From: Paragemmobacter kunshanensis | Lineage (GTDB): Bacteria; Pseudomonadota; Alphaproteobacteria; Rhodobacterales; Rhodobacteraceae | Length of the DNA: 64,000 nucleotides | Reading direction: 5' to 3' | Assembly: GCF_011059185.1 (NCBI RefSeq) | Contig: NZ_JAALFE010000003.1 | Location: 124,001-188,000, forward strand | Part shown: positions 1 to 3,404 of the stretch, in pieces | Position numbering within the stretch: the stretch's first letter is position 1 | How the letters are laid out: each line of letters starts with the position of its first letter | Position numbers and translations under genes: made by a program | The notes under the pieces: model-generated | What the model saw: only the letters and a program-made list of their open reading frames with translations | Told to the model about the DNA's origin: nothing | Databases searched by the model: none

Positions 1-2
1 AT

Positions 3-296
3 TCGGCCGATATCTCGACCGCCGATATCCAGCTGATGCGCGAGGAAGGATCGGCCTGGAAGGCCACGGCGGCCACCAACCCGGCCGTGGTGGGCGAGGT
101 TTCGGTGCGGTCGCTGGCGCTGCTGCTGGCGGGCGAGAATCCGGGGGCGAGCGTGATCGTGCCGCCGACGCTGATCACCCAGGCGATGCTGAACGAGCTG
201 GACATCAAGAACATGGAAGAGCTGGGCGCGAAGCTGCCCGCCTTTGCCCATGCCGATGTGGCGATGGCGCCGTGGATGACGCTGCCGCCCCGCTGA
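3..296 (+). CDS. Periplasmic sugar-binding protein, C-terminal part (gene runs in from the left)
   Basis: An open frame runs in from the window edge and ends at TGA 294-296, giving about 97 C-terminal residues. The stretch TAATNPAVVGEVSVRSLALL followed by VPPTLIT resembles the last lobe of type-1 sugar-binding proteins of ABC transporters, where the protein passes back between lobes and then gives a V-P-P-x-L-(V/I)-T strand. It would bind a sugar or sugar acid in the periplasm. The next gene follows 62 nt downstream on the same strand, so this is probably the uptake arm of the transketolase/RLP operon. The family call is moderate because the N-terminus, signal peptide and most ligand residues lie outside the window. 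Confidence 0.6.
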   Translation, partial: SADISTADIQLMREEGSAWKATAATNPAVVGEVSVRSLALLLAGENPGASVIVPPTLITQAMLNELDIKNMEELGAKLPAFAHADVAMAPWMTLPPR

Positions 297-358
297 GGAT
301 GCACCAACCGGGCGGGCCGTCGCAGGCCCGCCCCCTGCCCGCACAGGAGAGAGAGCCC

Positions 359-1288
359 TTGCGCAACGAGAAGACCACCGAAGAGATCGCGCGCGGCATC
401 CGTGCCCGCGTCTTCGAACATACGATCCGCAACAATGGTGGATATCTGAGCCAGGCCTGTTCGGCGGCGGAGCAGTTGGCCTTTCTGTATAACGAGGGGC
501 TGAACCTTGGCCCGTCGACCATGCCGATGGTGCCGCCGCCCTTTGGCGGCGTGCCCTCGGCGGACAATCCGGATTATGTGACGGGCGCGGGCTATAACGG
601 GCCCTTCGATGCCGTGCATGACCGGCTGTTCATCGCGCCCGCGCATTACGCGCTGGTCGCCTATGCCTGCCTGATCGAGGTGGGGCGCATGGCGCCCGAG
701 GGGCTTGGGATGTTCAACCGCGACGGATCGTCGGTCGAGATGATCGGGGCCGAGCATTCTCCGGGGATGGAGGTGCATAACGGCACGCTGGGGATCGGGC
801 TTTCGACGGCGGCGGGGCTGGCCTGGGGGCGCAAGCGGATGGGCCATAGCGGGCAGGTCTGCGTGTTCATGTCGGATGGCGAGGTGCAGGAGGGCCAGAC
901 ATGGGAGGCCGTGCAGGCCGCCGCGCATCACGGGATCGACAATCTGTGGGCGATCATGGACGTGAACCGCCAGCAATGCGACGGCGCGATGGACGAGGTG
1001 ATGACGGTGGGCGACATCGCCACGAAGTTCCGCGATTTCGGCGCGGTGGTGGCCGAATGCGATGCGCATGACCTGAAGGCGATGCGCGCGGCGCGGGCGA
1101 CGCCGCATCCGGGGCGGCCGCTGATCGTGCTGGCCCATTCGCGCCCGACGCAGGGGATGGAAAGCCTGATGAGCCGCTTCCCGCGCCTGCATTACGTGCG
1201 TTTCAAATCCGAGGAGGAGCGCGCGCGGATGAATATCGAGATCGCCGCCGAGCTTGGCGTGGCGCCCGTTGCCCTGGAGGCCCATTGA
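359..1288 (+). CDS. Transketolase-like subunit A (thiamine-diphosphate-binding half)
   Basis: A 309-residue protein matching the N-terminal (PP) domain of transketolase. The ThDP/metal signature is recognisable as SDGEVQEG followed about 26 residues on by DVN, so the usual first Gly of GDG is Ser. GAEHSPGMEVHNGTLGIGLS matches the H-G-x-L-G-x-G-L segment. The N-terminal block (NNGGYLSQACSAAE) departs from the common GHxGGSLS, marking a divergent branch. The start is the TTG at 359 behind AGGAGAGAG; earlier in-frame starts lie inside the preceding gene. The stop overlaps the next start (ATGA), implying coupled, stoichiometric synthesis with subunit B. Likely role: two-carbon ketol transfer in a sugar or branched-sugar catabolic pathway. 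The true substrate is unknown; two-subunit apulose-4-phosphate transketolase (AptA/AptB) is one precedent. Confidence 0.8.
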   Translation: MRNEKTTEEIARGIRARVFEHTIRNNGGYLSQACSAAEQLAFLYNEGLNLGPSTMPMVPPPFGGVPSADNPDYVTGAGYNGPFDAVHDRLFIAPAHYALVAYACLIEVGRMAPEGLGMFNRDGSSVEMIGAEHSPGMEVHNGTLGIGLSTAAGLAWGRKRMGHSGQVCVFMSDGEVQEGQTWEAVQAAAHHGIDNLWAIMDVNRQQCDGAMDEVMTVGDIATKFRDFGAVVAECDAHDLKAMRAARATPHPGRPLIVLAHSRPTQGMESLMSRFPRLHYVRFKSEEERARMNIEIAAELGVAPVALEAH

Positions 1289-2289
1289 TGGAGATGGTCA
1301 ACCGGCCCTATGCGGCCGCCTTTGAAGCCTATGCCGTGCAGCATCCCGAGGTTCTGTGCCTGTCGGCGGACCTGACGTCGAGCTGCGAGATCGACGGGTT
1401 CCGCGACCGGCATCCGGATCAGTTCCTGTCGCTGGGGATGGCCGAGCAGAACATGCTGTCTTTCGCGGGCGGCCTTGGCCTTGCCGGGTTCCGGCCCTTT
1501 CTGCATTCCTTCGGGGTATTCCTCTATCGGCGGCCCTATGACCAGCTGATGGCCTCGGTCGCCTATCCGCGGCGGAAGGTGCGGCTGATGGGGTTCCTGC
1601 CCGGGGTCACGACGCCGGGGGGCATGACGCATCAGGCGATCGAGGATATCTCGGTCATGCGGACGATCCCGAACATGACGGTGCTTGAGGCGGGGGATGC
1701 GACCGAGGTGGAAAGCATCGTGGCCGAGGCCGACCGGGTGGATGGCCCGGTCTATTGCCGCATCCTGCGCGGGGCGGTGCCGCGGCTGTTCGATACGCCG
1801 ATCCGCATCGGGCAGATGCGGGTGCTGGCCGAGGGCGAGGATGTGCTGGTGGTGACCGCCGGGATCACCACGGAAGAGGCGATCCGCGCGCGGGGGGCGC
1901 TGGCGCGAGCGGGGGTTTCGGTGCGGCATCTGCATCTGAACACGTTGAAGCCCTTTGACGCGGCGCAGATCGTGGACCATGCCGCCAGCGTGCGCCATGG
2001 GGTGATCACGCTGGAGAACCATCTGGTGACCGGGGGGATCGGGTCGATGGTGGCCGAGGCGCTGGCCGAGGCGGGGCTGGCGCGGCGGCTGATCCGGCTG
2101 GGCTTGCAGGATACCTATGCGCATGGCGGGTCGCGGCCCTATCTGATGAAGCATTACGGGATGGATGCGCTGTCGCTGGTGCGGGCGGTGGAACGGCTGA
2201 CCGGGCAGGCGACCGGGATCGACGAGGATGCGCTGGGCGCGGTGCGGATCGACGCGGTGCATTCCATCGTGAAGGCCGAGGCCCTGTGA
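1288..2289 (+). CDS. Transketolase-like subunit B (pyrimidine-binding and C-terminal domains)
   Basis: A 333-residue partner of the preceding subunit. It carries the pyrimidine-binding domain with the conserved GMAEQNM segment (the catalytic Glu that activates ThDP), a hypervariable FLPGVTTPGGMTHQAIEDI loop typical of transketolase/DXS-like enzymes, and the C-terminal transketolase domain (LVVTAGITTEEAIRA... VITLENHLVTGGIGSMVAE). Together A and B rebuild one transketolase. The start ATG at 1288 overlaps the stop of subunit A, and its stop at 2287-2289 overlaps the start of the RLP gene, so three genes are translationally chained. This argues that transketolase and RLP act in the same pathway, presumably handling successive phosphorylated ketose intermediates. 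The identity of the donor and acceptor cannot be read from the sequence. Confidence 0.82.
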   Translation: MEMVNRPYAAAFEAYAVQHPEVLCLSADLTSSCEIDGFRDRHPDQFLSLGMAEQNMLSFAGGLGLAGFRPFLHSFGVFLYRRPYDQLMASVAYPRRKVRLMGFLPGVTTPGGMTHQAIEDISVMRTIPNMTVLEAGDATEVESIVAEADRVDGPVYCRILRGAVPRLFDTPIRIGQMRVLAEGEDVLVVTAGITTEEAIRARGALARAGVSVRHLHLNTLKPFDAAQIVDHAASVRHGVITLENHLVTGGIGSMVAEALAEAGLARRLIRLGLQDTYAHGGSRPYLMKHYGMDALSLVRAVERLTGQATGIDEDALGAVRIDAVHSIVKAEAL

Positions 2290-3404
2290 TGACCCGCTTC
2301 ACGGTGACCTATCGCCTGCGTGCGGCGACGCGGGCCGAGGCGGTGGCGCGGGCCGAGGGGATCGCGCTGGAACAGACGGTGGAGATCCCGCGCGACGTGG
2401 TGCCGCCAGGCCCGGTGGAGGACGAAATCCTCGGGCGGGTGGAGGAGATCGGCGCGCTGGCGGACGGGGTCTGGCAGGCGGTGATCAGCTATTCGCCTGA
2501 CAGCGCGGGGGCGGAGTTCACGCAGTTCCTGAATGTGGTTTTCGGCAATTCCTCGATCCAGACGGGGATCCGGGTGACGGGGATCACGCCGGGGGCCGAG
2601 ATGGCGGCACGGATGCCCGGGCCGCGTTTCGGGATTGCGGGGATCCGCGCGCTGTGCGGGCGGGCGACGGGCGGGATGATCGCGCCGGTGCTGAAACCCA
2701 TGGGCCTGACGCCCGAGGATTTCGCGCGGCTGGCCGCGGGCTGTGTGCGGGGTGGCGCGGATATCGTGAAGGAGGATCACGGTCTGGCCGGGCAACCCGC
2801 GGCGCCGTTTCGCGCGCGGGTCGAGGCGGTGTGCCGGGCGATGGAGGCGGTGCGGGCCGAGACGGGGCGGCGGGCGCTGTATTTTCCCAACCTGTCGGGG
2901 CGGCCCGAAGAGATCGAGGACAATCTGCGCTTTCTGAAGGAGGCGGGGGCGGACGGGGTTCTGGTGATGCCGGGGCTGTTCGGCTTTGGCCTTGTTCACC
3001 GGATCGCGGGGGATGCGGCGCTGGGCCTGCCGGTGATGACGCATCCGTCATTTCTGGGGCCCTATGTGCTAGCCCCCGACAACGGGATCGACCATGGCGT
3101 CCTGTTCGGCACGATCCAGCGGCTGGCGGGTTCGGATATCTCGGTCTTTCCGAATGTGGGGGGGCGTTTCGGATTCACCGCAGCGGACTGCGGGCAGATC
3201 GCGGCGGCCTGCCGCGCGCCCGGGGGGCCGGGCAAGCCGATGCTGCCCAGCCCGGGCGGCGGCATGAGCGTGGCGCGCGCCGCCGAGATGCAGGCGATGT
3301 ATGGCGAGGATGTGGTCTATCTGCTGGGCGGAAGCCTGTTGCGGGATCCGGCGCGGATCGACGAGGCCGTGGCCGCGATGCGCGCGGCGCTGGATCGCGG
3401 ATAG
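2289..3404 (+). CDS. RuBisCO-like protein (form IV)
   Basis: A 371-residue RuBisCO large-subunit homologue, shorter than true large subunits (about 450-480). The Lys175 equivalent is K136 (LKPMGLTP). The carbamylation/metal motif KDDE reads KEDH at 161-164, keeping the Lys and the second Asp but replacing metal-ligand Glu204 with His164. The loop-6 region is NVGGRFGF without the carboxylase Lys334. Phosphate-binding glycines persist (PGGGMS 322-327, LLGGSLL 345-351). It therefore cannot be an ordinary carboxylase. Some form IV proteins act in sulfur salvage, and others (OiaX/OiaT) act on 3-oxo-isoapionate-4-phosphate in apionate breakdown. The sugar ABC and transketolase neighbours favour a carbohydrate role like the latter; this is inference. 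The ATG at 2289 overlaps the previous stop. Confidence 0.85.
   Translation: MTRFTVTYRLRAATRAEAVARAEGIALEQTVEIPRDVVPPGPVEDEILGRVEEIGALADGVWQAVISYSPDSAGAEFTQFLNVVFGNSSIQTGIRVTGITPGAEMAARMPGPRFGIAGIRALCGRATGGMIAPVLKPMGLTPEDFARLAAGCVRGGADIVKEDHGLAGQPAAPFRARVEAVCRAMEAVRAETGRRALYFPNLSGRPEEIEDNLRFLKEAGADGVLVMPGLFGFGLVHRIAGDAALGLPVMTHPSFLGPYVLAPDNGIDHGVLFGTIQRLAGSDISVFPNVGGRFGFTAADCGQIAAACRAPGGPGKPMLPSPGGGMSVARAAEMQAMYGEDVVYLLGGSLLRDPARIDEAVAAMRAALDRG

Follow-up and report, generated by a model that had tools for sequence, protein, structure and literature searches.

Genes at the locus

We investigated a RuBisCO-like protein (RLP) gene and its transketolase-like neighbours at the left end of a 64,000-nucleotide (nt) stretch of the Paragemmobacter kunshanensis genome (assembly GCF_011059185.1, contig NZ_JAALFE010000003.1, positions 124,001 to 188,000; hereafter the window). 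Coordinates prefixed L002 refer to the 20 kb left of the window (C41:104001-124000). Within the first 3.4 kb of the window, the end of a binding-protein gene and three further genes, TKa, TKb and RLP, are arranged head to tail:

1..296, + strand: 3' end of the gene for a periplasmic sugar-binding protein, whose start lies left of the window at L002:19259 (= C41:123259)
359..1288, + strand: TKa, N-terminal (diphosphate-binding) half of a split transketolase-like thiamine diphosphate (ThDP) enzyme
1288..2289, + strand: TKb, C-terminal (pyrimidine-binding) half of the split transketolase-like ThDP enzyme
2289..3404, + strand: RLP, form IV RuBisCO-like protein of a DeepYkr-related, transketolase-linked group

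Pfam domains and open reading frame (ORF) coordinates confirmed this gene content, which an earlier sequence-only reading had named. TKa matched Transketolase_N (56.9 bits) and TKb matched Transket_pyr (89 bits) and Transketolase_C (76.4 bits), all above cut-off, and RLP matched RuBisCO_large with 72.2 bits against a cut-off of 30.1. This was the single RuBisCO_large match in the whole genome, which has six additional places similar to TKb. The likely start of TKa is the TTG at 359, favoured because a relative (L050) begins at the same residue. TKb starts at ATG 1288 (alternative TTG 1285) and ends at 2289, and RLP starts at ATG 2289 (alternative GTG 2286) and ends at 3404. The genes overlap, as the sequence-only reading had described, but at two junctions (TKa-TKb and TKb-RLP) rather than three, and through TGATG rather than ATGA, with an overlap of 1 nt (4 nt with the TTG or GTG starts); 62 nt lie between the binding-protein gene and TKa.

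The operon had been expected to continue left of the window, and the following genes were found there:

L002:11041-13107, - strand: class II aldolase/short-chain dehydrogenase (SDR) fusion
L002:13204-14181, + strand: SorC/DeoR-type regulator
L002:14178-15281, - strand: mtnA
L002:15278-16543, - strand: mtnK
L002:16664-18178, + strand: ABC ATPase
L002:18175-19188, + strand: ABC permease
from L002:19259 to window position 296, + strand: sugar-binding protein, running on into TKa-TKb-RLP

Both MtnK (473.8 bits against 275) and MtnA (423 against 279) exceeded their methylthioribose equivalog cut-offs, and mtnA is single-copy in the host genome. The aldolase-dehydrogenase fusion passed one PRK08324 cut-off (836.6 against 639) and missed another (902.9 against 931). 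Over 291 aligned positions, the binding protein shares 35% identity (E 1e-53) with one encoded beside a methionine-salvage cluster on a Priestia megaterium plasmid. With mtnK, mtnA, the aldolase fusion and a methylthioribose-type importer, the left-hand genes are those of methylthioribose/5-deoxyribose catabolism, not apiose catabolism.

The RLP groups with probable methylthioribulose isomerases

Phylogenetic analysis united the transketolase-linked RLPs with RLPs encoded beside a cupin in one clade, with support of 98/93 in an 84-row tree (five near-duplicate rows, L011, L031, L045, L058 and L060, left out; L060 is apparently the same contig as L095) and 100/99 in a 39-row tree (rows chosen from 92 available, a long Vibrio row excluded). 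Both trees separated this clade from MtnW and from RLPs adjoining four-carbon acid sugar kinases. In neither tree did window-type RLPs fall within the core cupin clade; they are kin of that group, not members. The cupin group was nested within the transketolase-linked group in the larger tree and its sister (88/83) in the smaller one, and we therefore dropped the idea that cupin-linked RLPs arose within transketolase-linked RLPs. The closest solved relative of the window RLP is 3qfw (2.4e-66). A cupin-linked RLP from another genome matched 3qfw at 2.8e-126, so that 3qfw belongs with the cupin-linked group; the DeepYkr label of our group is based on the cupin neighbour and 3qfw.

The active site agreed with this placement in the trees. 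H165, R294 and C302 were invariant in all 62 transketolase-linked and all 15 cupin-group rows, and these positions differed in 2/2 MtnW and 8/8 NonPhoto-like rows, which carry Glu at position 165. F295 was also invariant, yet is common to seven of the eight NonPhoto-like rows. The Vibrio row kept R294, F295 and C302, with Asp at 165. The available text of PMC5893883 identifies a member of the DeepYkr clade, R. palustris RLP1, as a methylthioribulose-1-phosphate 1,3-isomerase, which converts 5-methylthioribulose 1-phosphate to 1-methylthio-xylulose and -ribulose 5-phosphate. By kinship, the window RLP most likely catalyses the same reaction. An MtnW role was ruled out by the separate clade, the differing residues and scores of 167.8 bits against 409 and 121.4 against 513.6.

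The sequence-only reading had proposed that the operon handles a branched or rare sugar acid such as apionate, and had itself named a place among methylthioribulose isomerases as counting against this; that is essentially where the RLP falls. A catabolic sugar operon stands, but the sugar acid does not, given mtnK, mtnA and the aldolase fusion as neighbours and a score of 78.9 bits for the NCBIfam OiaX (3-oxo-isoapionate-4-phosphate decarboxylase) equivalog, whose cut-off is 700. That proposal, in which TKa/TKb would correspond to AptA/AptB and RLP would be of the OiaX/OiaT type, would account for a form IV RLP, a split transketolase and a sugar ABC transporter occurring together, and a cluster of sugar-acid type does exist farther left (L002:3250-9140, past an MFS-like gene and the aldolase). 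We nevertheless regard it as extremely improbable: the four RLPs adjoining four-carbon acid sugar kinases fall in a different clade, no sugar isomerase or FGGY kinase was found among the ORFs between aldolase and RLP, and a second operon elsewhere in the genome fits the apulose type better.

This second split-transketolase operon (L124:8610-13354 = C1:416610-421354) encodes an isomerase-like protein, TKa, TKb and an FGGY kinase beside a ribose-type ABC transporter, and we take it to resemble the apulose/apiose type. The cluster at L002:3250-9140 encodes DGOK (2-keto-3-deoxy-galactonokinase), an SMP-30/gluconolactonase, a GH42 beta-galactosidase and a protein of the alpha-amylase family; we saw no sign that it belongs to the window operon, its conservation not being among the comparisons made.

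The trio is conserved together with MtnA

To place the three genes in a genomic context we used a main set of 62 loci (L005-L059, L061-L064, L094, L095 and the window), which includes close relatives and is not a set of independent observations. Loci were collected by RLP similarity alone, with a scan of genome contigs giving 56 loci and a scan of plasmids giving annotated relatives. The neighbourhood comparison that had been suggested for RLPs next to two-subunit transketolases bore out the association: TKa-TKb-RLP was intact in 58/62 loci, which, since RLP similarity alone had gathered them, indicates linkage above chance. Three of the four non-intact loci end at a contig edge, and the fourth, L054, has RLP alone. 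MtnA was present in 51/62 loci, including all 39 whose sequence extends 7 kb or more to each side, MtnK in 41/62, a class II aldolase in 39/62 and a purine-nucleoside phosphorylase (PNP) in 8/62; none of these eight PNP-type loci had an aldolase within the available flanks. Searching with tblastn and the Terrarubrum cupin as query found the shunt cupin in 0/62 loci.

A second set of 18 loci (L182-L199, from assemblies partly overlapping the first set) had the trio in 17 and MtnA in 15, with neither in L191. Among 295 genomes of the window's family, RLP (identity at least 52%) was found in 20 and MtnA in 84, and all 20 RLP carriers had MtnA (hypergeometric P = 2e-12, kinship ignored); a 21st RLP match, in G890, is a distant RLP. 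Flanks were compared for 15 of the 19 other carriers in the family, and TKa and TKb adjoined RLP in 14, G960 (L191) being without them. A draw of 385 alphaproteobacterial genomes gave RLP matches in 20, the window's own included. The other 19 comprised two transketolase-linked, 14 cupin-group and three distant RLPs. The cupin adjoined RLP in 13 of the 14 cupin-group loci, as it also does in Terrarubrum, and the 14th locus (L105) ends just past RLP.

This linkage bears on the proposal that the transketolase takes 5-deoxyribose or methylthioribose as acceptor, in a reaction comparable to the formation of 7-deoxysedoheptulose, with the RLP serving an unrelated role. The available text of PMC8102628 describes promiscuous enzymes of S. 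elongatus that convert 5-deoxyribose to 7-deoxysedoheptulose, and a transketolase-based conversion in vitro. We consider such a role very improbable here, as MtnK and MtnA would already have removed the free aldehyde, the trio is kept together in nearly all loci, and conserved transketolase histidines are altered on the TKa side.

The split transketolase has altered pocket residues

TKa and TKb both resemble the split transketolase of Carboxydothermus (6yak/6yaj). We compared residues across 59 rows, keeping in the count one row that deviates over the GGYLSQ motif (possibly an extraction or frame error). The catalytic Glu (AEQ) and the ThDP-binding DG motif were present in 59/59, as were the APAHYA His, the THQ His and the two Arg of the YRRPYDQ and LRG motifs. 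In TKa, however, Tyr replaces the histidine of the transketolase GHP motif in 58/59 rows, and the loop with the second transketolase histidine is replaced by GAEHSPG in 59/59. The GAEHS loop aligns with the GAAHS loop of the host genome's two DXS-type enzymes, and the canonical histidines are retained in the apulose-type split pair of the same genome. From transketolase structures, we take these histidines to contact the C1-hydroxyl side of the donor. Their loss is consistent with a donor that lacks a C1 hydroxyl and has CH3 or CH2-S-CH3 at C1.

We also observed that the C-terminal tail of TKb, KAE(A/G)L (window 2272-2286), is almost invariant across the 59 rows and reads KPEAL in Vibrio; it has no counterpart in the host genome's other split transketolase or in DXS.

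Variant operons

The order mtnK-mtnA-TKa-TKb-RLP forms a single run in some Rhizobiales (Mariluticola, Shinella and Pararhizobium), with the importer and a regulator-aldolase pair alongside, and is also uninterrupted in L182; in L035 the uninterrupted run is TKa-TKb-RLP-mtnA. In one alphaproteobacterium MtnA and TKa are fused in a single 656-aa frame (L094:7149-9119, - strand), both halves of which are recognised by NCBIfam models. TKa and TKb are fused in a 669-aa frame beside RLP (L056:5771-7780, + strand) in a Hyphomicrobiaceae metagenome-assembled genome, behind genes that we take from their sequence to be rimP-nusA-infB.

The Ponticoccus operon runs PNP, amidohydrolase, mtnA, molybdopterin oxidoreductase, TKa, TKb and RLP, with a BMP-type importer beside it; PNP and amidohydrolase stand in place of MtnK. 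The amidohydrolase matched TRZ/ATZ and 5-deoxyadenosine/methylthioadenosine (MTA) deaminase models, all below cut-off. The molybdoenzyme scored 901.2 bits against the bisC S/N-oxide reductase model, short of the required 1017.55, and is a relative rather than a certified member of that family. It occurs in three of the 62 loci (L047, L053 and L061, of which L053 and L061 are near-copies):

L061:7788-10064 (also in L053): bisC-type S/N-oxide reductase relative within the PNP-mtnA-transketolase-RLP operon

The presence of an S-oxide reductase relative in this operon points to a thioether or sulfoxide substrate.

Two further observations concern this operon type. Behind RLP lies a gene for a secreted-looking 336-aa protein (L061:13166-14176, also in L053) with no Pfam or NCBIfam match. 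A nearly identical copy of the Ponticoccus operon lies on the contig of L053/L185, whose label is Enemella evansiae (Actinomycetota); the same operon is found in a genome of the window's own family (G745), and the label is probably wrong.

The Ponticoccus-type PNP belongs to the inosine/guanosine family (305.4 bits against a cut-off of 218), which, together with a weak similarity of the window's binding protein to ribose-type proteins (31.5 bits), would suit unsubstituted ribose as substrate. Ribose 1-phosphate would then pass through ribulose 1-phosphate (MtnA-like) and xylulose 5-phosphate (RLP) to a normal transketolase reaction. This seems improbable, since the MtnK and MtnA scores exceed methylthioribose equivalog cut-offs and TKa lacks the two histidines that the host genome's other split transketolase retains. 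Ribokinase and housekeeping enzymes would, moreover, already handle ribose.

A Vibrio nigripulchritudo plasmid (L066:9944-14563) carries a distant TKa-TKb-RLP trio followed by an FGGY kinase in place of mtnK/mtnA. This suggests that the RLP-transketolase module also serves another ketose phosphate.

A proposed pathway for 5-substituted riboses

From the genes observed, their families, linkage, clade and residues, we infer the substrates, both reactions and the products of a pathway. With a probability of about 0.58, these window genes form the end of an operon that would catabolise riboses substituted at C5 (chiefly 5-methylthioribose and probably 5-deoxyribose too) by way of MtnA, RLP and TKa/TKb. 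Both sugars are by-products of S-adenosylmethionine use. The ABC transporter would import the 5-substituted ribose. Judging by its family, MtnK would yield the 1-phosphate, or MtnP would supply it from internal MTA; this MTA phosphorylase is present in the host genome (509.2 bits against a cut-off of 437). MtnA, again by family, would produce 5-methylthioribulose 1-phosphate. Because this product is phosphorylated at C1, it is no expected transketolase donor. The RLP, given its clade and active-site signature, would shift the carbonyl from C2 to C4 and form 1-methylthio-xylulose/ribulose 5-phosphate, and such a 1-X-xylulose 5-phosphate could serve as donor for a ThDP enzyme. The earlier proposal that the RLP product or substrate is a partner in the transketolase reaction is probably right. 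Operon logic and the pocket residues suggest that TKa/TKb would cut this ketose between C2 and C3 to give glyceraldehyde 3-phosphate and a ThDP-bound methylthio-acetyl unit.

The ending is speculative. Where X is SCH3, the most economical course would be for methanethiol to leave the ThDP adduct, giving acetyl-ThDP and then acetyl-phosphate or acetate, an ending that fits the operon because it makes an extra enzyme unnecessary. Sulfoacetaldehyde acetyltransferase and phosphoketolase are precedents for loss of a beta-leaving group from a ThDP adduct to form acetyl-ThDP. We propose only tentatively that TKa/TKb might be a methanethiol-releasing phosphoketolase, which would convert 1-methylthioxylulose 5-phosphate to glyceraldehyde 3-phosphate, methanethiol and acetyl-phosphate (or acetate). 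The host genome encodes an O-acetylhomoserine sulfhydrylase, above cut-off, which could reuse the methanethiol. The aldolase-dehydrogenase would be a parallel outlet, to dihydroxyacetone phosphate (DHAP) and an aldehyde, suited to 5-deoxyribose (X = H) because this has no leaving group.

The same genes could instead have 5-deoxyribose as main substrate. The RLP would then make 1-deoxyxylulose 5-phosphate (DXP) from 5-deoxyribulose 1-phosphate, and TKa/TKb, working like DXS in reverse, would pass the acetyl unit of DXP on to an aldehyde acceptor, with glyceraldehyde 3-phosphate and an acyloin or 1-deoxyketose as products. The DXS-like GAEHS loop and the loss of both transketolase histidines fit a methyl group at C1, class II aldolases are common among the loci, and the available text of PMC10986504 describes E. 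coli MtnK and MtnA as acting on both substrates. However, the S-oxide reductase relative of the Ponticoccus type and the kinship to methylthioribulose isomerases point to sulfur, and we recognised no acceptor-forming or follow-up enzyme in the operon. Taken as a whole, this alternative is rather unlikely.

Several observations weigh against methylthioribose catabolism through RLP and TKa/TKb. L183 and L184 each carry an isolated trio, MtnA being encoded at a different place in the genome, and L054, whose contig is apparently that of L191, carries the RLP without transketolase genes. A 780-aa aceE-like ThDP enzyme directly behind RLP in two loci (L039:8308-10647 and L046:11144-13486) is unexplained by the proposed pathway. 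On the Vibrio plasmid no MtnA was found within the 25 kb examined, and this, with the FGGY kinase and the Asp at 165, makes a wider substrate range possible. An SBP56-family methanethiol oxidase was not found in the host genome. The aldolase of 39/62 loci is already an outlet. Finally, the residue argument depends on assumed roles of the transketolase histidines.

If the methanethiol-releasing phosphoketolase were real, it would be a new kind of ThDP enzyme and would complete a methylthioribose pathway that does without oxygen and has a split transketolase instead of the cupin of the MTA-isoprenoid shunt; it would also make Rhodobacteraceae and Rhizobiales a source of volatile methanethiol. 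More generally, the locus may provide a ThDP enzyme whose pocket is altered and a source of methanethiol in soils and the sea. The RLP-transketolase branch is predicted to bypass 2-methylthioethanol, in which the aldolase route of the E. coli DHAP shunt ends according to the available text of PMC10986504.

Comparison with known systems

In the PMC literature, which leaves subscription journals mostly outside, we found no description of an RLP-transketolase pairing in MTA, methylthioribose or 5-deoxyribose metabolism. The available text of PMC7895386 has a transketolase beside true RuBisCO and Prk, a different context.

MtnW (2,3-diketo-5-methylthiopentyl-1-phosphate enolase) is likewise an RLP of methylthioribose salvage, and in Priestia lies near mtnK/mtnA and an ABC importer, but it forms a separate clade with other active-site residues, and the window RLP falls well below its cut-off (167.8 bits against 409). 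The apulose-4-phosphate transketolase AptA/AptB, which we take to be a two-subunit transketolase of a catabolic operon, resembles TKa/TKb in that respect. Its defining context is presumably an operon with a sugar isomerase and a ketose kinase; TKa/TKb, in contrast, lacks an isomerase or FGGY kinase partner (no tblastn match to an FGGY kinase in 26 kb around the window RLP) and has lost two transketolase histidines. Sulfoacetaldehyde acetyltransferase and phosphoketolase resemble TKa/TKb in the proposed chemistry alone, the proteins being different.

The closest parallels are the two methylthioribose shunts. In the MTA-isoprenoid shunt (R. rubrum, and R. palustris with RLP1 and a cupin methylsulfurylase), the MtnA product is the RLP substrate, as far as the available descriptions go, and the window RLP belongs to the same larger clade and has the same active-site signature. 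The partner of window-type RLPs is, however, a split ThDP enzyme and not a cupin, and most of their loci have an importer and MtnK. Apparently the same RLP chemistry is coupled to two unrelated follow-up enzymes, and an RLP group beside, yet outside, the characterised cupin-linked isomerases gains a substrate context. The DHAP shunt (mtnK-mtnA-ald2; E. coli ATCC 25922, R. rubrum and B. thuringiensis) shares mtnK, mtnA and a class II aldolase with the window's locus, which differs in that TKa, TKb and RLP would provide a second outlet and that its aldolase is fused to a dehydrogenase (SDR); no such aldolase was found in the available flanks of the eight PNP-type loci. What appears to be new at this locus is the combination of DHAP-shunt genes and an RLP of the isoprenoid-shunt type with a new partner enzyme.

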